64,000 bases of DNA from Tessaracoccus sp. MC1865 (GTDB lineage Bacteria; Actinomycetota; Actinomycetes; Propionibacteriales; Propionibacteriaceae): contig NZ_CP072596.1 in the NCBI RefSeq assembly GCF_017815535.1, forward strand, positions 2,511,614-2,575,613. The letters run 5' to 3'. Below the pieces are notes generated by a model. It did no database searches. It was given only the letters and a program-made list of their open reading frames with translations, and was not told the DNA's origin. Of the stretch, positions 14,415 through 46,756 are shown in pieces. Made by a program: the position numbers and the translations under genes. How positions within the stretch are numbered: position 1 is the first letter of the stretch; every line of letters starts with the position of its first letter.

Positions 14415-15569
14415 ATGCACATCGACGCGTTCCGGGAGCTCCTGCTGGATCGCTCCCCCGGGGCCGCACCGCTGCCCGTGCAGGTGGCGGCCGGCATCCG
14501 CGACTTCGTCGCCCTTGGCTCCCTGCTCCCGGGCGAGGCGGTGCCGTCGACGCGCGCGGCCGCCGTCGCCCTGGGCGTCTCGCGCGGCACCGTCGCGGCT
14601 GCCTACGACCAACTCGTCGCCGAGGAATATCTCGTGGCCCGCGACCGCTCCGGCACCGTCGTCAACCCTGACCTGCGCTCGGTTTCGGCCCCCACCGTGA
14701 GCAAGTGGATGGGGTCATCGCCCCGACACGCCGGAAAACGGCCCGAAACCAACCGTGACCCCATCCAATTGCTCACGGGCTCCGACGGCGGGGCCTGGCC
14801 CGACGACGCCGCCTGGCGCAGTGCCTGGCGGCGAGCCGTGACGGACGAGCCGGTCCCCGCATTGGCGGAAGCGGTGGCCGAACACCTGCGCCACATGCGC
14901 GGCGTGGTGGTGGAGGCGGACCGCATCACTGTGACGTCCGGTGCGCGCTCCGGGCTGTCGTTGCTGCTCGCGGTGGCGGCGAGGAGGGCGGGCAGGCGCC
15001 CGCGGGTCGCCGTCGAGTCGCCCGGCTTCCCGGGCCTGCGGCGACTGCTGGAACATTCGGCCGTGGACACCGCGGCGCTGCCCGTCGGCGCGGCGGGTCC
15101 GCACCTGGAGGCACTGAACCGCGCCCACCGCCGCTCCCCCATCGACCTGGCCATCGTCACACCCAATCACCAGTACCCCGACGGCGGGGCGCTGTCCGCC
15201 CGCCACCGGCAGGCCATGATCGCCTGGGCGCGCGACGAGGGCGTGGTGCTGGTGGAGGACGACTTCGACTCCGAACGCCGCCACCTGGGCCCGCCGCTGC
15301 CCACGCTGTGGAGCCTGGACCCCACCGTCGTGGCCCACCTGGGCACGTTCGCGGCGGTGATCGGACGGGGCGTGGGCACCGGTTACCTGGTGGCGCCGGC
15401 GTCGTGGCATGCCGAGATCGTCGGCGCGGCCGACGCGACGGGCGCCGCTCCCCCACTGTTGCTGCAACGCGCCGTCGCCTCCTACCTGGCCGACGGCGGC
15501 CTGCGCCGGCGCCTGGCACGGGCCCGCCGTCGCGCCTCCTCCACGAACCGCGAACTCACGTTCCGCTGA
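14415..15569 (+). CDS. MocR-type GntR regulator, degenerate and interrupted
   Basis: 384 residues: a GntR winged helix (about 1-78, GVSRGTVAAAYDQLVAEEYL), a linker, then a class-I aminotransferase-like domain (GARSGLSLLLAVAARR, ESPGFPGLRRLL, EDDFDSE). Three oddities. Residues 94-121 come from an 84-bp palindromic element (14695-14778) inserted in frame in the linker. The PLP-lysine block, normally GTFSKTLxPxLRxGY, reads GTFAAVIGRGVGTGYLV, so the Schiff-base lysine and the arginine are missing. The protein stops about 80 residues before the usual C-terminal subdomain. It may be a PLP-independent repressor or a dying gene. It diverges from phoX. Confidence 0.75.
   Translation: MHIDAFRELLLDRSPGAAPLPVQVAAGIRDFVALGSLLPGEAVPSTRAAAVALGVSRGTVAAAYDQLVAEEYLVARDRSGTVVNPDLRSVSAPTVSKWMGSSPRHAGKRPETNRDPIQLLTGSDGGAWPDDAAWRSAWRRAVTDEPVPALAEAVAEHLRHMRGVVVEADRITVTSGARSGLSLLLAVAARRAGRRPRVAVESPGFPGLRRLLEHSAVDTAALPVGAAGPHLEALNRAHRRSPIDLAIVTPNHQYPDGGALSARHRQAMIAWARDEGVVLVEDDFDSERRHLGPPLPTLWSLDPTVVAHLGTFAAVIGRGVGTGYLVAPASWHAEIVGAADATGAAPPLLLQRAVASYLADGGLRRRLARARRRASSTNRELTFR
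14695..14778 (+). repeat. 84-bp palindromic coding element, copy 1
   Basis: Terminal arms of 22 bp (14695-14716 and 14757-14778) are inverted repeats with one mismatch: left arm begins CCGTGAGCAAGTGG, right arm ends CCAATTGCTCACGG. The 40-bp middle is also shared with copy 2 at 30109-30192 read on the opposite strand (CGACACGCCG, GAAAAC, AAACCA). 84 is a multiple of three and the frame is open: it encodes VSKWMGS, then a variable stretch, then DPIQLLT. It sits between the helix-turn-helix and aminotransferase-like domains of the MocR-like gene. Confidence 0.85.
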
Positions 15570-19683: not shown

Positions 19684-19720
19684 CCTATTGCAGCCTCCGG
19701 ACATTCACCGGGCAAAGAAA

Positions 19721-19813
19721 AAGGGCCCCTCGCGCACCCGGAAGAGCTCACTTACCCTTGCTGCCTTCCGACCCTGGGGGAGTTGGGCGAGTTACCGCCG
19801 CGCGAGGAACCTT
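19721..19813 (-). ncRNA. ffs: Signal recognition particle RNA (4.5S type)
   Basis: On the minus strand the conserved SRP Alu-less hairpin is plain: the apical core GGTCGGAAGGCAGCAAGG with the GGAA tetraloop region, flanked by symmetrical helices that end in CCTCGCGC / GCGCGAGG. The size (about 90 nt) fits the small bacterial 4.5S RNA that pairs with Ffh to target membrane proteins. The 3' end runs into a terminator-like GGGGCCC followed by T-rich sequence (plus-strand AAAGAAAAA at 19714-19722). It lies just upstream of dnaX on the same strand. Confidence 0.9.
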
Positions 19814-19861
19814 GGATCACTCTACCCCATCCTGATCGGCGCTTCACTTCGGCGGATTTCG

Positions 19862-19985
19862 CCCCGGATCTGGATTCGGTCCGGTCCGGCACCCCGGATC
19901 TAGATTTGGGGCCTTCCCCGCGCGGCGGCCCGACGCCCCGGATCTGGATTCGGTCCCGTCCGGCACCCCGAATCTGGATTTGGGG
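19862..19985. repeat. Four copies of an 18-base CCCCGGATCTGGATTCGG-like motif
   Basis: The motif begins at 19862, 19892, 19936 and 19966: two pairs, 30 bases apart within each pair and 74 bases between pairs, so a unit of about 58 bp is duplicated with about 90 percent identity. Copies differ at one to three bases (for example CTAGATTTGGG and AATCTGGATTTGGG). They fill the space between the SRP RNA gene and the asparaginase gene, whose start is 30 bases further on. They could be regulator sites or a local duplication. Confidence 0.75.
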
Positions 19986-20015
19986 TCTTTCCGGCGGCGG
20001 TGGCAGGGTGGCGGA

Positions 20016-29240: not shown

Positions 29241-29972
29241 GTGATCTTGATTCTGGGCGGCACCGCGGAGGGGCGCCGGTTGGCGGCCGCGCTAGGGAGC
29301 GGGGCCGTGCTCTCCCTGGCCGGGCGGACGGAGGACCCCTTGACAGTGGGCGACACCCGGCGCGGCGGCTTCGGCGGCGCCGAGGGCTTGGTGTCGTACC
29401 TGCGGGAGCACCGCGTCGAGGCGGTGCTGGATGCGACGCATCCGTTCGCCGCCACCATGTCGGCCAACGCCGTGGCCGCCTGCGCCCGGGCAGGGGTGCC
29501 GCTGCTGCGCGTGGTGCGGCCCGGCTGGGGCGGGCACCCCCTCGCAGCGACGTGGCGCTGGGTGGATTCGCACCCCGAGGCCGCGGCTGCGGCTGCCGAG
29601 GGCGAGCGGACGGTGCTGCTCACCGTGGGGCGGCAGCACACCGTCGACTATGTGCCGGCGCTGGCGGGGCATCGCGTGGTCGCGCGGGTGGCGGAGGCTC
29701 CCTCCCAGATCCTTCCTGCGGGCTGGGAGGTGCTGACTGTCCGCGGGCCGCTCACGGTCGACGGCGAGCGGGAGTTGTTCCGCCGGTACGGGGTCGGTGT
29801 GGTGGTGACCAAGGACTCGGGAGGCGCGGCCACTGAGGCCAAGCTGACCGTCGCCGAGGAGTACGGGGCCGAGGTGATCATGCTGCGGCGCCCCGAGCTG
29901 CCGGCGGCCGACGAGGTGGCGAGCGTCGAGGACGCCCTGGCGTGGGTGAGTCACCGGCCCACCCCCAGCTGA
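29241..29972 (+). CDS. cobK: Precorrin-6A / cobalt-precorrin-6A reductase
   Basis: 243 residues from the GTG at 29241 (LILGGTAEGRRLAAAL directly follows); a TTG at 29229 is the alternative. The N-terminal nucleotide-binding loop, DATHPFAATMSANA, and VVTKDSGGAATEAKL are typical CobK/CbiJ blocks; it reduces the macrocycle with NADPH. It is the only plus-strand gene within 26.9-36 kb, divergent from cobT and overlapping the end of cobC by 22 bases. Confidence 0.93.
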   Translation: MILILGGTAEGRRLAAALGSGAVLSLAGRTEDPLTVGDTRRGGFGGAEGLVSYLREHRVEAVLDATHPFAATMSANAVAACARAGVPLLRVVRPGWGGHPLAATWRWVDSHPEAAAAAAEGERTVLLTVGRQHTVDYVPALAGHRVVARVAEAPSQILPAGWEVLTVRGPLTVDGERELFRRYGVGVVVTKDSGGAATEAKLTVAEEYGAEVIMLRRPELPAADEVASVEDALAWVSHRPTPS

Positions 29973-31027
29973 CGCAGCGCCTCGACCAGGTGTTCGTGGA
30001 CGTCCGGCGTGCGCACCGCGAGCCGCAGCCAGGTGGGGCCGAGCCCGGGGAAGGTCTCCCCGCGCCGCACGGCGAAGCCTCGCTGAGCCAGCGCTCGACG
30101 TGGTCCTTCCGTGAGCAATTGGGTGGGGTCGTCGGTGGTTTGGGGTGTTTTCCTCGGCGTGTCGCACCGTGACCCCATCCAATTGCTCACGGTGTCGACC
30201 AGCACGAACGGGGCGGCACCCGGGACTGTACGCAGGCCGAGGTCCGTGAGGCGCATGACGAGGTCGCGACGATGGGCAGCGGCGTCCCGCGCGAGCCCGG
30301 CCGCCTCCGCCCGGGCGCGCGCCGTCAGGCACGCGAGGGTGGCCCGGATGGCCGGGGTGGAGACGGACCACGGCGGCTGCTGGCGCTCGAGCGCCTCGAT
30401 GAGGGCGGGGTCTCCGACGACGTAGCCCGCGCGGAGACCGGCCAGCGCCCAGGTCTTGGTGAGCGACCGCAGCACCAGCCGCCCGGGCATGCTGGGCGCG
30501 ATGAGCGTCTCGGGTTCGCCGGGCACGGCGTCGAGGAAGGCCTCGTCCACCACCAGCACCCCGGCGCGCAGCGCGGCCAGGTCAGCCGCGGAGTGCAGCA
30601 CCGCCGTCGGGTTGGTGGGGTTGCCCACCACGATCAGGTCGGCCGGCGGCACGACGCCGGGGTCGAGTTGAAAGTCGCTCTCGGGGGTCAGTACGTGGCG
30701 CTGGGGTGTGCGGCCGGCGGCCAGCAGAGCGGCCTCGGGTTCGGTGAACTGCGGATGCACGATCAGGGACGAGCCGGTGACGGCGCGGGCGATGAGGGTG
30801 AAGGCCTCGGCGGAGCCTGCCGTCGGGAGCACCATCGCGGGGTCGACGCCGTGGTGCTCCGCGATGGCCAGCCTGGCGGGTTCCGGGTCCGGGTAGGCGG
30901 CCCAGTCGGCGTCGCGCATGATGGCCTCCACCAGCCACGCCGGGGTGCGGGGCTGACGGACGTTGACGGCGAAGTCGATGAGCCCCGGCGCGAGATCCTT
31001 GTCGCCGTGGTGCCACAGGTCCGTCAT
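29951..31027 (-). CDS. cobC: CobC, PLP-dependent threonine-phosphate decarboxylase-like enzyme
   Basis: 358 residues. The aminotransferase-fold core includes NVRQPRTPAWL, LPTAGSAEAFTLIARA, GNPTNPTAVL, VVDEAFLDAVPGE and the PLP lysine in LRSLTKTWALAGLRAGY, so the active site is intact. It belongs to the actinobacterial CobC group expected to supply aminopropanol (phosphate) for the nucleotide loop. Residues about 279-306 (VSNWMGS ... DPTQLLT) come from the in-frame palindromic element at 30109-30192, placed between a beta-strand ending FVLVDT and the helix GPRRALAQRGFAVRRG. The ATG at 31027 overlaps the cobB stop. Confidence 0.9.
   Translation of the reverse strand: MTDLWHHGDKDLAPGLIDFAVNVRQPRTPAWLVEAIMRDADWAAYPDPEPARLAIAEHHGVDPAMVLPTAGSAEAFTLIARAVTGSSLIVHPQFTEPEAALLAAGRTPQRHVLTPESDFQLDPGVVPPADLIVVGNPTNPTAVLHSAADLAALRAGVLVVDEAFLDAVPGEPETLIAPSMPGRLVLRSLTKTWALAGLRAGYVVGDPALIEALERQQPPWSVSTPAIRATLACLTARARAEAAGLARDAAAHRRDLVMRLTDLGLRTVPGAAPFVLVDTVSNWMGSRCDTPRKTPQTTDDPTQLLTEGPRRALAQRGFAVRRGETFPGLGPTWLRLAVRTPDVHEHLVEALRQLGVGR
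30109..30192 (-). repeat. 84-bp palindromic coding element, copy 2
   Basis: Same element as at 14695-14778, here read on the minus strand inside cobC. The 22-bp arms (30109-30130 and 30171-30192) are inverted repeats with one mismatch; the outer ends are CCGTGAGCAATTGG and CCAATTGCTCACGG. In the cobC frame it encodes VSNWMGS, a variable stretch and DPTQLLT, the same frame as in copy 1. The middle shares CGACACGCCG, GAAAAC and AAACCA with copy 1. No target duplication beyond the shared CC/GG ends can be defined. Confidence 0.85.
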
Positions 31028-36839: not shown

Positions 36840-37618
36840 TGGGCCGCGAGGTAGCGCTGATCGGCATCGGCGCGGGCGACCCGAACTGGCTCACGCTCGA
36901 AGCGGTCGCGGCGATCCGCGAGCTCGACGTCCTGTTCGTGGTGGTCAAGGAGGACGAGTACGAGGAGCCCGTCGCGTTCCGGCGTGATCTGGTGGCCCGG
37001 CACCGGGGATCTGATCTTCCCGGTGTGCGCGTGGTGGAGTTGACAGACCCGCCCCGGCCCTGGCGCAGCACGCCCGACTATCCCGCCGCTGTGACCCGGT
37101 GGCGGCAGCAGCGCTTCGAGCAGTGGGGCGCCGCCATCGACGGGGCGCTCGGCGCCGGCGAGACCGGCGGCTTCCTGGTGTGGGGCGACCCCAGCCTGTA
37201 CGAGTCGACGCTGGCCATCGTCGAGCGCATCGCGGAGGCCGCCGTCGAACCGTTCTCGGTCCGCGTGCTCCCAGGGATCAGTTGCGTGCTGGCGCTGGCG
37301 GCGCGGCACCGCATCCCGCTCAACCGGCAGGGCAGGGCCGTGCAGATCAGCCCAGCGCGGCTCCTGGCCGACGGGCTGCCCGACGGCGTGGACGACGTCG
37401 TCGTGATGCTCGACGGTAAGCAGACCTTCGCGACGATCGATCCCGCCGGCATCGAGATCTACTGGGGCGCGTACCTGGGCACGCCGGATGAGATCCTCCT
37501 CAGCGGCCGACTGTCCGACGTCCGGGAGGAGATCACCCGGGTGCGGGCCGACGCCGCGGCCCGTAAGGGATGGATGTTCGACACCTACCTGTTGCGGCGG
37601 GTGGGGCTCGACGCCTGA
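36839..37618 (+). CDS. cobF: Precorrin-6A synthase (deacetylating), C1-methyltransferase
   Basis: 259 residues. Tetrapyrrole methylase fold with the SAM loop IGIGAGDPNWLTLEA, the GGFLVWGDPSLYEST block, VLPGISCVLALAARHRIPLN and the C-terminal EIYWGAYLGTPDEIL stretch, which match CobF rather than any other C-methylase. In the aerobic pathway it methylates C1 and removes the C20/C1 two-carbon unit as acetate. It overlaps cobH. CbiD, which does the equivalent step in the anaerobic pathway, is not in this window. Confidence 0.93.
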   Translation: MGREVALIGIGAGDPNWLTLEAVAAIRELDVLFVVVKEDEYEEPVAFRRDLVARHRGSDLPGVRVVELTDPPRPWRSTPDYPAAVTRWRQQRFEQWGAAIDGALGAGETGGFLVWGDPSLYESTLAIVERIAEAAVEPFSVRVLPGISCVLALAARHRIPLNRQGRAVQISPARLLADGLPDGVDDVVVMLDGKQTFATIDPAGIEIYWGAYLGTPDEILLSGRLSDVREEITRVRADAAARKGWMFDTYLLRRVGLDA

Positions 37619-37671
37619 GCCTGCCGCCTGCAACTGGTCGAAGGATCCCGACGCCGACCGCGATGCCCACC
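37614..37671 (+). repeat. 58-bp direct repeat, copy A
   Basis: Identical to 39705-39762. It begins in the last codons of cobF (CCTGAGCCTGCC) and ends GCGATGCCCACC. The sequence directly after it belongs to a 5'-deleted DUF222 gene. Confidence 0.9.
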
Positions 37672-38650
37672 CGCCCGGCCTGCGCCTCCACCTCCTCCAT
37701 GAGGCCCGCCTCTCCGCCGCAGACAGTGTCGTCGACGTGGACCGCCAATCCGTGCGCACCACCACCGGTCAGGCCACCGCCTGCCTGAAACTGGCGCTGG
37801 ATCTCGGGGAGCGGTTCCCGCTCATCGCTGCGGCGTTGAACAACGGGGAGATCTCCCTGGCGCAGGCCGAGGCGATCGTCTCGGGGTTGCGGAAGCTGCC
37901 CGGCCGGTTGACCCGCGCCGATCTGGTGGAGTGCCAGAGGTCGGCGCTTGAGCATGTGGACACGCTGGGGCCTTCGGAGTTGCGGGAGTTGGCGTCGCGG
38001 CTGGTCGAGGTGATTGATCCTGACCTGGCGGACGCCGACGAGGCGAAACGCCTGGCGGCCGAAGAGCGGGCCGCGCGGCGAGGCAGGTTCCTGGCGCCTT
38101 TCGCCGGACCGTCACGACTCGATCCGGATCACCGGGCAACTGCCCGTGGCGGATGCCGCCTTGCTGGCGGCGCAGCTGGAGGCGTTGCTGCCGTCGGCCT
38201 CCTCGTACGCGAATGCGGGCGAGACGCCGGGGCCGGACGTTCGCCGCGCCGACGCGCTGGTGCTGCTGGTCCAGGCCGCGGCCGCGTCCGGCGAGCTTCC
38301 GGCCCATGGCGGAGACCGGCCACGGGTCCACATCACCATGCACCTCGACACCCTCACCACCGGGCTGGGAGCGGTGGGGTTGCCGGGCCTCGACGTCGAC
38401 GGCCTCACCCCAGGAGCGGCCCGCAGAATGGCGTGCGACGCGGGCGTGATCCCCATGGTGCTCGGCAGCGACTCCCAGCCCCTCAACGTCGGCAGAGAGC
38501 ATCGGCTGTTCACCCCCGCCATCCGCGCCGCCCTGATCTTCCGTGACGCGGGCTGCGCGTTCCCCCACTGCGCCGCCACACCGGCCTCGTGTGAGGCGCA
38601 CCACATCATCCCCTGGTGGGCAGGCGGAGAATCGTCGATCAACAACCTGG
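37672..38650 (+). pseudogene. DUF222/HNH endonuclease pseudogene
   Basis: A near-identical but broken copy of the gene at 39879-41279. The promoter and the first 40-50 codons are missing: after the 58-bp repeat the sequence jumps straight into the GLRLHLLHEARLSAAD region. A one-base insertion between 38090 and 38105 shifts the frame (intact copy: FLRLSPDHHGSIRITG). It then continues through the HNH domain as far as HHIIPWWAGGESSINN, where homology stops near 38650 and foreign sequence begins. DUF222 proteins correspond to the 13E12 repeat family of mycobacteria, which are multi-copy and prone to such duplication. Confidence 0.85.
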
Positions 38651-38808
38651 CTAGTTACCAATCTGGTCCCACCTGTCACAGGTTTGCCCCGGCGCACGGG
38701 TTCCACGAGTCGGGCATCGAAGATGGCGGGCCTTTGCGCCACCAACCGTTTACTACCGTTCCGGTAGGGTCGCGCGTATGGCGGGGCAGAGACTTGAGTA
38801 ACGGCTTT
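38651..38808 (+). promoter_or_regulatory. Leader of the FRG-domain insert with two short palindromes
   Basis: Between the broken HNH gene and the FRG gene lie two perfect short inverted repeats: ACCTGTCACAGGT (near 38672) and CTACCGTTCCGGTAG (38753-38767). They could be operator half-sites or leftover recombination sites. No clear -10/-35 pair is visible. Confidence 0.3.
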
Positions 38809-39703
38809 ATGTGGAAGATGACCGGCTGGTACGTTGAGCCCAAAAGCGCCAGAGACGTGATGCAGGTCTTAGGGTCTATTGGCGTGTACAGCCGGGGTCA
38901 GAAGTTCGCGTGGCGCGGGATGAGCAGCATCGACTTCGATCTGCGTTCATCGCTTCATCGGCGCTTGGGGCACAAAGTGACCGAAGACCAGATGCGCCGG
39001 GCGGAACTCGCGTCACTGGCTGAGGCGCGAAATTGGGGCTTCGGGATCACGGAAAACGGTCACGTTGATGACCTCCAACTATTGGCTGACCTTCAACACT
39101 TCGGGGCGCCCACCAGACTTCTGGATTTTACTAGTAATCCGATGACTGCCCTATGGTTCGCATGTCAGCCAGCAACCTGAAACAAATGGACAGGGCAGCA
39201 GACCTTCTAAGACGGGGCTCCTCTTGGCTCTTAACGTGACGAGATGGCCGAAGCACATGACGGTCGGCGATGCCTACGAGCCGCCTACGTATGGCTCCAT
39301 TGGCAACCCCGTCGGTTGGACCCTTGAGCAGGCGCTCGAAACGACTGGGCCATTCTTGGTCGAGCAGTCAAACCCGAATCCTCGACTCCGTGCACAAGAG
39401 GGCTTCTTCGTCGCTGGCGCATTGCCTAAACAGGACTTGGCGCGGGATCTTTCCGGTCCTTTCGCCAGCCTCGACATCGAGGTTCCACCCGGGGATAGCG
39501 AGAGATTGCAGAGTCGACTCACCGCAGAACGCAGCCGTGGCAATCCGATGCACCTCCCTCTGGTGGCTGTGATTATCAATGCGGGTTTGAAGAAACGTCT
39601 CCTTGCTTATCTGGAGAATTCGTACAACCGCAGCGCGCGCGTTCTGTTTCCTGACTATCCCGGTTTCGTCAATTTCGGGCTACCGAACTTTGAGGGAACG
39701 TGA
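38809..39703 (+). pseudogene. FRG-domain protein gene, frameshifted
   Basis: The first part (38809-39180) encodes an FRG domain: FAWRGMSSIDFDLRSSLHRR, then LADLQHFGAPTRLLDFTSNP and ALWFAC. The frame then closes at 39178-39180. The other frame, open from before 39180 to 39703, carries the expected continuation (TGLLLALNVTRWPKH, LRAQEGFFVAG, LFPDYPGFVNFG). A single frameshift around 39165-39185 therefore splits what was one protein of about 297 residues. Base composition is visibly lower in GC than the neighbours. FRG proteins are frequent in bacterial accessory regions, but their role is not settled. Confidence 0.75.
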
Positions 39704-39704
39704 T

Positions 39705-39762
39705 CCTGAGCCTGCCGCCTGCAACTGGTCGAAGGATCCCGACGCCGACCGCGATGCCCACC
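39705..39762 (+). repeat. 58-bp direct repeat, copy B
   Basis: Exact copy of 37614-37671, here two bases after the FRG stop codon and upstream of the intact DUF222 gene. The following 116 bases (39763-39878) are the promoter region missing from the broken copy. Confidence 0.9.
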
Positions 39763-39842
39763 GCCCGTGATCGGCCACGTAGCGACGGAAATTGTCAGAG
39801 GTCAGTGCTAGCGCAAGTTGCCTTTGACAAGGGCCTTTTCCC

Positions 39843-39871
39843 TTGTTTTAGACCGTGCGTTCCTTTAGAAT
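39843..39871 (+). promoter_or_regulatory. Promoter of the intact DUF222 gene (probably leaderless)
   Basis: TTGTTT at 39843-39848 and TAGAAT at 39866-39871 with a 17-base spacer form a good sigma-70-type promoter. The ATG at 39879 lies seven bases beyond the -10 box, so transcription would begin at or next to the start codon. An inverted repeat CAAGGG-CCTTTT-CCCTTG overlaps the -35 region and may bind a regulator. Confidence 0.65.
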
Positions 39872-39878
39872 AGTTCAC

Positions 39879-41279
39879 ATGAGCGAAGCGCGGGAACTGA
39901 TGCAGCAGGGTATCGCTGCGCTCTGGGACGCCGTAGGCTCACTCCGCACTGATTCACCGGCCGCAGAACGGTTGGCCACCATGGTGCACACCGTCACCGA
40001 GGCCGAGGCCCAACTGGCCGGCCTGCGTCTCCACCTCCTGCACGAGGCCCGCCTCTCCGCCGCAGACAGTGTCGTCGACGAGGTCCGTCAGTCCGTGCGC
40101 ACCACCACAGCCCAGGCCACCGCGTCGTTGAAACTGGCGCTGGATCTCGGGGAACGCTTCCCGCTGATCGCCGCGGCGTTGAACGACGGGGAGATCTCGC
40201 TGGCGCAGGCCGAGGCGATCATCTCCGGGCTGCGGAAGCTGCCCGGCCGGTTGACCCGCGCAGATCTGGTGGAGTGCCAGAAGTCGGTCCTTGAACACGT
40301 GGACACCCTGGGGCCTTCGGAGTTGCGGGAGTTGGCGTCGCGGCTGGCCGAGGTGATCGATCCTGACCTGGCGGAGGCTGACGACGCGAAGCGTCTGGCA
40401 GCCGAAGAGCGGGCCGCGCGCAGGGGAAGGTTCCTGCGTCTGTCACCGGACCATCACGGCTCGATCCGGATCACCGGCCTGCTACCGGTGGCAGATGCCG
40501 CGTTGTTGGCCGCGCAACTGGAGGCGTTGCTGCCGTCGGCCTCCTCCTACGCGGACGCGGGCGAAACTCCGGGGCCGGACGTACGACGCGCCGACGCCCT
40601 GGTGCTGCTGGCTCAGGCCGCGGCCGCTGCCGGTGACCTGCCTGCTCATGGCGGGGACCGGCCCCGGGTCCACATCACCATGCACCTCGACACCCTCACC
40701 ACCGGGCTGGGAGCGGTCGGGTTGCCGGGCCTCGACGTCGACGGCCTCGCCCCAGGAGCGGCCCGCAGAATGGCGTGCGACGCGGGCGTGATCCCCATGG
40801 TGCTCGGCAGCGACTCCCAGCCCCTCGACGTCGGCCGCGAGCATCGGTTGTTCACCCCCGCCATCCGCGCTGCCCTGATGCTGCGGGACGGGGGCTGCGC
40901 GTTCCCCCACTGCACCGCCACACCGGCCTCGTGTGACGCGCACCACATCGTCCCCTGGTGGGCAGGCGGAGGATCCTCACTCGCCAACGGCGTTCTCCTC
41001 TGCCCGCACCATCACCGGCTGGTCGAGCCAGACCCACAACAGTCACCCGAATCACAATGGCAGGTCCACCTGGACCAGGTCACCGGGATGCCGTGGTTCA
41101 CCCCACCCCGACATGTCGATCCGGCGCGCAGACCCAGGCAACACCCACGACACCTGATGCGCGAACTCACCCCGTCAGCCAAGGCACCACCCCGCCCGGA
41201 CGAATCCGAGCCCCCTGACTTCAGCCGGCTCGAGGAACTCATCGCCCGCACCGCCGTAGTCTGGCAACCCGCCAGCTGA
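39879..41279 (+). CDS. DUF222-domain HNH endonuclease (13E12-repeat family)
   Basis: 466 residues, intact. Residues about 25-320 are the DUF222 helical domain (SLAQAEAIISGLRKLPGRLT); the C-terminal HNH nuclease domain follows with CAFPHC, CDAHHIVPWWAGG and NGVLLCPHHH (His, Asn, His and the Cys ligands all present). Members are abundant in actinobacteria; a homing or mobile-element role has been suggested for the group, but cellular function is unknown. It is the functional sister of the pseudogene at 37672 and lies inside the cobalamin region, convergent with the cbiX gene. Confidence 0.9.
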   Translation: MSEARELMQQGIAALWDAVGSLRTDSPAAERLATMVHTVTEAEAQLAGLRLHLLHEARLSAADSVVDEVRQSVRTTTAQATASLKLALDLGERFPLIAAALNDGEISLAQAEAIISGLRKLPGRLTRADLVECQKSVLEHVDTLGPSELRELASRLAEVIDPDLAEADDAKRLAAEERAARRGRFLRLSPDHHGSIRITGLLPVADAALLAAQLEALLPSASSYADAGETPGPDVRRADALVLLAQAAAAAGDLPAHGGDRPRVHITMHLDTLTTGLGAVGLPGLDVDGLAPGAARRMACDAGVIPMVLGSDSQPLDVGREHRLFTPAIRAALMLRDGGCAFPHCTATPASCDAHHIVPWWAGGGSSLANGVLLCPHHHRLVEPDPQQSPESQWQVHLDQVTGMPWFTPPRHVDPARRPRQHPRHLMRELTPSAKAPPRPDESEPPDFSRLEELIARTAVVWQPAS

Positions 41280-46582: not shown

Positions 46583-46621
46583 CGTGGCCTCCTGTGGGTT
46601 CGCTCGCCCGGACAAAGTGGC

Positions 46622-46725
46622 CGCGCAGACAGAGTTCCTGACTCACCCGTTAGGGCTCACAGTGGCGGGACCGCCCCGGATTCACACCGGGTTCCTCTGA
46701 CGCTCTGCGCGTTGGCAGTCATCCT
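46622..46725 (-). ncRNA. Cobalamin riboswitch, cobI leader
   Basis: A textbook match on the minus strand: GAGGAACCCGGTGTGAATCC, then CGGTCCCGCCACTGTGA (plus-strand 46657-46666 covers GCCACTGTGA), a P6 hairpin CCC-TAA-CGGG, and the B12 box GAGTCAGGAAC. Between it and the cobI ribosome site, GTCCGGGCGAGCGAACCCAC gives no strong terminator, so translational control is more likely. Confidence 0.93.
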
Positions 46726-46756
46726 CGCAGACCCCCTTCCGGCGCCGACGGCGGGG

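Follow-up and report, generated by a model that had tools for sequence, protein, structure and literature searches.

Two 84-bp palindromes that sit in frame within unrelated genes of Tessaracoccus sp. MC1865 belong to a dispersed family of short elements, nearly all examined copies of which lie between genes, and in related genomes such palindromes flank a gene for a two-part protein, AbiEi-like in its N-terminal half and nuclease-like in its C-terminal half. We consider it likely that they are REPIN-like: short, non-autonomous, dispersed palindromes of near-constant length, served by a non-HUH enzyme of the AbiEi-like plus DUF559 nuclease type, with the copies in this genome left as orphans.

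Two palindromes in the window

The window (the whole 64,000-nt stretch analysed, G000:C1:2511614-2575613) comes from a Tessaracoccus genome, here called G000, that consists of one contig of 3.04 Mb. An initial annotation had described two 84-bp elements with 22-bp inverted-repeat arms, one mismatch per copy and a close likeness to each other, lying in frame and free of stop codons in a MocR-like gene and, on the other strand, in cobC; both are present at the coordinates given, and the account of their arms, likeness and hosts is borne out. The features of the window are as follows.

14695..14778 (G000:C1:2526308-2526391), + strand: palindromic element copy 1, 84 bp, in frame within the MocR-like ORF
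14695..14720, + strand: left arm of copy 1
14724..14733, + strand: conserved core decamer of copy 1, CGACACGCCG
14753..14778, + strand: right arm of copy 1
14415..15569, + strand: host ORF of copy 1, GntR/aminotransferase (MocR-like) by Pfam, C-terminus shorter than in orthologs
30109..30192 (G000:C1:2541722-2541805), - strand (coding strand): palindromic element copy 2, 84 bp, in frame within cobC
30155..30164, - strand: conserved core decamer of copy 2, CGACACGCCG
about 29951..31027, - strand: host gene of copy 2, aminotransferase family by Pfam, presumably cobC, with the sequence after the insert still alignable to orthologs
19718-19814, - strand: SRP RNA (Rfam)
46611-46741: cobalamin riboswitch (Rfam)

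The two copies have the 27-mer ACCGTGACCCCATCCAATTGCTCACGG in common and are read by their host ORFs in the same codon phase (GTG AGC AAN TGG), with no stop; the peptide predicted for the insert in CobC is VSNWMGS...DPTQLLT. We take the name cobC from the translation, as the initial annotation did, and the names groES, bioB, CPBP, MFS and IS30 are likewise presumed from translations, unlike those based on Pfam. The MocR-like host gene ends early, with weak in-frame alignment to an ortholog for about 20 residues beyond its stop codon, and from its sequence it may be decaying; the CobC of the window retains the region downstream of the insert. Elsewhere in the window, two 63-nt direct repeats (19860-19996; 90% identical, 74 nt spacing) lie near the SRP RNA, and positions 37614-40735 hold duplicated stretches about 2.3 kb apart with at least 88% identity.

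A dispersed family with genome-specific arms

A search for the 20-bp arm with at most 3 mismatches returned 25 sites in the 3.04-Mb genome, against none for the reversed control pattern. These sites resolve into 11 full and 3 half copies and one unrelated match (at 642 kb), with no parent transposon among them. The resemblance of the two window copies is thus far beyond chance and both are confirmed members of one dispersed family, as the initial annotation had proposed; copies beyond its two loci are present in G000 and in relatives. In the G000 consensus the arm CCGTGAGCAATTGGATGGGGTCACGG is followed by a core containing CGACACGCCG, then by a variable stretch and finally by the arm in inverted form. 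The inverted arms span 24-26 bp, and the length is 84 bp in 10 of the 11 full copies, with the core displaced by one base in some.

The same layout recurs in the other genomes that were read. T. massiliensis SIT6 (G044) has at least 30 copies by covariance model. A model built from 16 copies found matches at E <= 1 in at least 13 of 39 genus genomes; among them is G017, whose single match (L066) has no TGAGCA ends and was left out of the family. With a model of 32 chosen copies at E <= 0.001, matches occur in at least 13 of the 39 genus genomes and at least 20 of 198 family genomes. The length is again 84 bp in 28 of 30 T. massiliensis copies and in 14 of 15 copies of a further genome, G003. 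In G001 the arm-to-arm distance is 71 in 21/21 copies, and these are flanked by C and G in 21/21, which puts the true length of the element at 73 or more, perhaps 75. Across the loci read, palindrome length is specific to each family and ranges from about 42 to 94 bp.

Arms are conserved and cores vary (G022, G023 and G051 carry other cores), and the genomes read each have arm sequences of their own. The two arms change together: of the 24 pairs in the set of 32 chosen copies, 16 have changed on both sides, and the covariation score is 0.418, compared with 0.134 for shuffled and at most 0.097 for slid alignments. In the G003 copies (L060-L114) one arm mostly reads AAGTGAG where the other reads AAATGAG at the same position, and perfect arm pairs number 0/15. 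Different species have some places in common, with the genes on either side preserved, and the copies at such places have the arm type of their own genome; arm types were compared side by side at three such places, two of them among G044, G053 and G015 and one between G044 and G003. The single place shared by G003 and T. massiliensis could be chance. Two further observations concern location. Upstream of cobC in G023, G019 and G022 there is another, diverged element (L143 2361-2444, L132 2517-2600, L137 2364-2447). The gap beside a tRNA-Ile gene (L048, L265) holds an 84-bp element in G000 and an element of an unrelated family in G001, and this gap is possibly an insertion hot spot.

Empty sites in orthologs

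The initial annotation had suggested a mobile element, and orthologs do not carry the same residues at the two places: the element is absent from all 12 cobC orthologs that span the site (13 were aligned, and L146 stops short of it), and 8 of 8 MocR-like orthologs have no recognisable element. The evidence for mobility consists of these element-free orthologs together with the differing sets of places between genomes; each species is represented by a single genome, often distant from the others, and no insertion event was observed directly.

Neither site looks like a simple insertion, given the loss of host bases at cobC and the replaced sequence in the MocR-like gene. At cobC the element is accompanied by a net loss of host sequence that amounts to 12 bases when compared with G053 and to 17-18 when compared with nine others; the difference is 21 for two diverged orthologs and -22 for one, and no usable alignment was obtained for three. 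At the MocR site four orthologs carry about 60 other bases where the element sits. Target-site duplications of 2-9 bp showed no pooled excess over shuffled flanks in 56 copies. Extension of the palindrome into its flanks showed no excess within single genomes; a higher pooled figure, reached in 36/1000 shuffles, combines genomes whose flank compositions are opposite. At the cobC insertion point G053 reads ACC TTGAGCAAT GAG and the window reads ACC GTGAGCAAT, which is the element's end. This single case hints that homology guided the insertion, or else that G053 carries a scar, and TGAGCAAT in the target may have guided the cobC insertion in this one instance. An origin from a phage or plasmid was rejected: exact pattern searches of viral contigs gave no match to the element, nor did blastn of copy 2 against plasmids and phages.

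A candidate partner gene between palindromes

Clustering of the genes that adjoin elements singled out one gene of about 285 aa, which lies between two copies in four genomes; the proteins of the three other genomes are 52-76% identical to that of T. massiliensis, which is encoded in strain SIT6 at NZ_LN623541.1:129704-130564 on the + strand. The arrangement recurs in many Propionibacteriaceae. Palindromes of 83-85 bp lie close on both sides of the gene in G044, G019 (two paralogs, with different arms), G003, G022, G051, G023 (two loci) and G043. The G046 gene is adjoined by one palindrome, with another about 0.4 kb off; G053 (at a contig edge), G011 and G042 have one close on one side, and at a second locus in G011 there are weak copies of greater length to either side. 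The palindromes that flank the gene in G047 are identical to each other over 60 bp, and the CGACACGCCG core or its complement is present at loci of other genera (L242, L243, L250).

This linkage was scored against control genes, of which 51 had 450-bp flanks (generic scan) and 36 had full 600-bp flanks (linked-pair scan). The controls include L132, L137 and L143, with the element upstream of cobC, as well as L131, with copy 2, and retaining them is conservative. In the generic scan both sides were palindromic at 19/44 homolog loci and 0/51 controls, either side at 33 homolog and 7 control loci, and linked arms of at least 15/20 occurred at 17 and 1. A linked-pair score of at least 64 was reached by 23/44 homologs and 0/36 controls, a cut-off picked after both sets of scores were visible; at 62 the counts are 25 and 1, at 60 they are 27 and 5, and at 56 they are 30 and 13. 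Fisher's test gives about 3e-8 both for 19/44 and for 23/44. The 23 linked loci are spread over 21 genomes, and the 21/44 homologs under the threshold include some with flanks truncated at contig ends or with copies farther off.

Arms taken from beside the gene, used as a prediction test, uncovered new families in two more genomes. G001 is a Tessaracoccus without a match to the covariance model, and the arm found beside its partner gene returned 44 sites in that genome against none for the control. They make up 21 copies, including the two flanks of the gene; none lies inside a predicted gene, and one extends 6 bases into the end of the partner gene. Elsewhere the G001 arm has 0 sites in G044 and G113 and a single site, with 3 mismatches, in each of G047 and G003; in G003 the control has one too. 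In another genus the gene-side arm of G125 returned 21 sites in G125 and none for the control, which by their coordinates make up one half copy and 10 full copies 70-71 bp long, the flanks of the gene accounting for two; it has 2 weak sites in G126, 1 in G044 and 0 in G113 (where the control has 2). Across Tessaracoccus, a homolog of at least 44% identity, a line set after the fact, is present in 10/13 element-positive genomes and 1/26 others (Fisher 4.5e-6). The lone homolog in the element-negative set is that of G046, which has its own palindrome type, and weaker DUF559 homologs (E <= 1e-10) occur in 26/39 Tessaracoccus genomes. Three genomes, G000, G015 and G020, have elements without an intact close partner. 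Judged by its neighbours, the gene occupies at least four different places, and it seems to have moved, since the G053 partner is closest to those at the groES site but lies at the other main site. Searches of phages and viral contigs gave no match to the partner, and the plasmid collection gave one; a phylum-wide search at 1e-30 returned 0/396 and is uninformative. In Tsukamurella (Mycobacteriales) a DUF559 gene has, by eye, a palindrome on each side; that palindrome occurs at three places on the gene's record, with more copies on two other Tsukamurella records of the same sample description, and the system may thus extend beyond Propionibacteriaceae.

The partner protein combines an AbiEi-like N-terminal half with a C-terminal half of the DUF559/MTES_1575 type (a Vsr-like restriction endonuclease domain). 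At E <= 0.01 the MTES_1575 profile matches 24/24 proteins and DUF559 matches 22/24; among four scored proteins, none reaches the curated cut-off of MTES_1575 and three reach that of DUF559. The C-terminal half also matches profiles of PDB 3hrl (2e-5) and 3r3p, a 'Mobile intron protein' (9e-4) that we take to be the Vsr-like I-Bth0305I. Against the PADLOC AbiEi profile the N-terminal half scores E values of 1.7e-9, 3.4e-8, 1.9e-9 and 3.9e-4 in the 4/4 proteins tested, and Pfam AbiEi_4 matches just 2/24 proteins at E <= 0.01. Five residues are invariant in the 24 proteins (E186, H190, D217, E228 and D230) and fit a predicted nuclease active site. Fold and active site are assigned from profiles only, as structure prediction was poor (pLDDT 42) and was left unused.

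Arm sequences track the protein. Over 14 loci, arm similarity and protein identity are correlated (Mantel r = 0.65, 0/5000 permutations), with 0.70 for the N-terminal half and 0.45 for the nuclease half; the test is partly confounded by phylogeny and takes the best of the typed arms at each locus. The second paralog of G019 has arms that match those of G051, whose protein is 91% identical to it, and that are unlike those of the other G019 paralog.

Apparently orphaned copies in the window's genome

No partner gene was found in G000 at E <= 1e-10. The T. massiliensis locus runs groES, element, partner gene, element, bioB-like gene, element, MFS gene. A distance of 17 kb separates the groES side from the MFS side in G000; on both sides a half element adjoins an IS30-like transposase gene, and the interval between the two IS copies holds sugar-transport and other genes; tblastn found no partner in it and its gene list has no bioB-like gene. 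With no partner, and with IS-bounded DNA at its presumed place, the G000 copies look orphaned.

IS30-like ends also lie within the core of several copies: two in the window's genome (G000:C1 891720 and 908981; L080), one in G003 and one in a 'Propionicimonas' MAG (L029, L174). It is as if the IS30-like element targets the palindrome, a pattern for which ISPpu9 in REPs offers a comparison (PMC8450116).

Alternative explanations

Several alternatives can be weighed against mobile palindromes with a partner enzyme. In the first, the palindromes are immobile functional sites (operator, nucleoid or defence-related) of the AbiEi-DUF559 protein, kept under selection, with arms that follow its specificity. 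The places common to several species with both flanking genes kept, the conserved arms around variable cores and the closer tracking of arms by the N-terminal half are all in keeping with this, and AbiEi proteins are described as autoregulating through inverted repeats (PMC7319586). We nonetheless think it unlikely. The 26 T. massiliensis copies clear of predicted genes fall into 12 tandem, 9 divergent and 5 convergent gaps, so promoters are not favoured; copies flank the partner gene on both sides; and copies lie inside cobC and the MocR-like gene, both element-free in orthologs.

A second possibility is an ordinary MITE, a derivative of a DDE transposon that bears long terminal inverted repeats and is mobilised in trans by the transposase, with the DUF559 gene as a passenger. 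The elements do resemble MITEs in being short and multi-copy with inverted termini and no coding capacity of their own, and an IS30-like transposon lies within several copies; the ends of that transposon differ from those of the element, which makes the IS an invader of the element. Unlike MITEs, the palindromes have no target-site duplication in the 56 copies, which argues against a DDE transposase, and it is the DUF559 gene that lies between linked palindromes, in 21 genomes and with locus-specific arms; no parent DDE transposon was seen in the loci read. This origin is quite improbable.

Third, the initial annotation had likened the pair to Rickettsia palindromic elements, a coding element selected for an open frame in one orientation. 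Rickettsia palindromic elements of about 150 bp are reported to integrate in ORFs, in frame in 11/12 homologs (PMC10969869), and the palindromes here are likewise occasionally in frame inside genes: two copies are so placed in two genes, and cobC is alignable beyond its insert. The likeness does not extend to the family at large. Gene context, taken from a codon-usage gene caller, was examined for all 11 full copies of G000, 30/30 of T. massiliensis and 15 of 26 listed places in G003. Predicted genes contain 2/11 copies in G000, 0/30 in T. massiliensis and 1/15 in G003; in the sole G003 case the coding score is negative across the element, which probably lies between genes. In 6 of these 56 copies a predicted gene terminates on the element's own TGA.

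That both window copies use the same of the six frames is true and says little. Each arm carries a TGA (CCG TGA) that shuts most other frames, so the shared frame was largely forced. Frame +2 is open in 8/11 full copies of G000 and 27/30 of T. massiliensis, frame +1 is open in 10/15 copies of G003, which has different arms, and some frame is open in 21/21 copies of G001. Since intergenic copies are open as often as genic ones and in the same frame, the open shared frame reflects arm sequence and survival and not coding selection. The palindrome is not a coding element, and with the MocR-like host ending early as well, the proposed selection for an open frame is very improbable. Two other candidates were rejected: the gap types show no clear preference of the kind expected of a terminator, and Rfam has no match at the elements that would indicate an RNA element.

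Finally, true REPs or REPINs moved by a RAYT (Y1 HUH transposase) are hardly credible here: the layout is the same in its dispersed, extragenic inverted doublets with conserved ends, a variable middle or spacer and a partner adjoining copies (PMC3116915, PMC3733652), but PF01797 occurs in 0/39 genus genomes (the control was positive in 5/14 known genomes), and the ends carry no GTAG or CGTC tag, with TGAGCA near both ends instead (from the 32-copy alignment, read by eye with no statistics).

A model of enzyme and palindrome

The partner enzyme probably copies or maintains the palindromes, and a sequence of steps can be suggested. The AbiEi-like half would bind the arms, as AbiEi does with two inverted repeats of 23 bp (PMC7319586), a size close to that of the arms here. 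The Vsr-like nuclease half would cut DNA at the element or at its target. Repair would then copy the element into new intergenic places and overwrite old copies, by which the arms would be homogenised. Genic insertions would persist only where the frame stays open, which would explain the two in-frame copies of the window.

The known system closest in outline is that of REPINs and RAYTs, in which enzyme and palindromes have co-evolved (PMC8266576). Here the partner is AbiEi-like plus DUF559/MTES_1575 and not Y1 HUH, and length is near-constant. CGTC-tagged REPs are reported to form palindromic families without a dedicated transposase (PMC3733652); the present family has no such tag, and a candidate partner gene has been identified. 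The partner differs from the AbiEi of the type IV toxin-antitoxin system AbiE in its endonuclease fusion and its flanking dispersed palindromes, and from the Vsr-like homing endonuclease whose domain its C-terminal half resembles in that its gene lies between dispersed palindromes. The initial annotation knew of no such element in this kind of actinobacterium; in the openly licensed papers searched we likewise found no prior description of these palindromes or of a DUF559 partner.

To our knowledge, the HUH RAYTs, which are unrelated to the candidate described here, are the one well-studied partner enzyme of short bacterial palindromic repeats. A broader proposal, to which we give even chances, is that Actinobacteria hold a second, independently evolved counterpart of the REPIN-RAYT system: 'homing palindromes' that are spread and continually overwritten across the genome by an AbiEi-DUF559 endonuclease, the DNA-binding half of which co-evolves with their arms, such that a change of specificity would bring concerted rewriting and loss of the enzyme, as in G000, would leave orphans. 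If this is true, populations of palindromes tied to an enzyme arose at least twice, the poorly described DUF559 domain family would gain a likely role, and these genomes would supply a naturally occurring set of proteins, each matched to its own arms and differing from the others in specificity.
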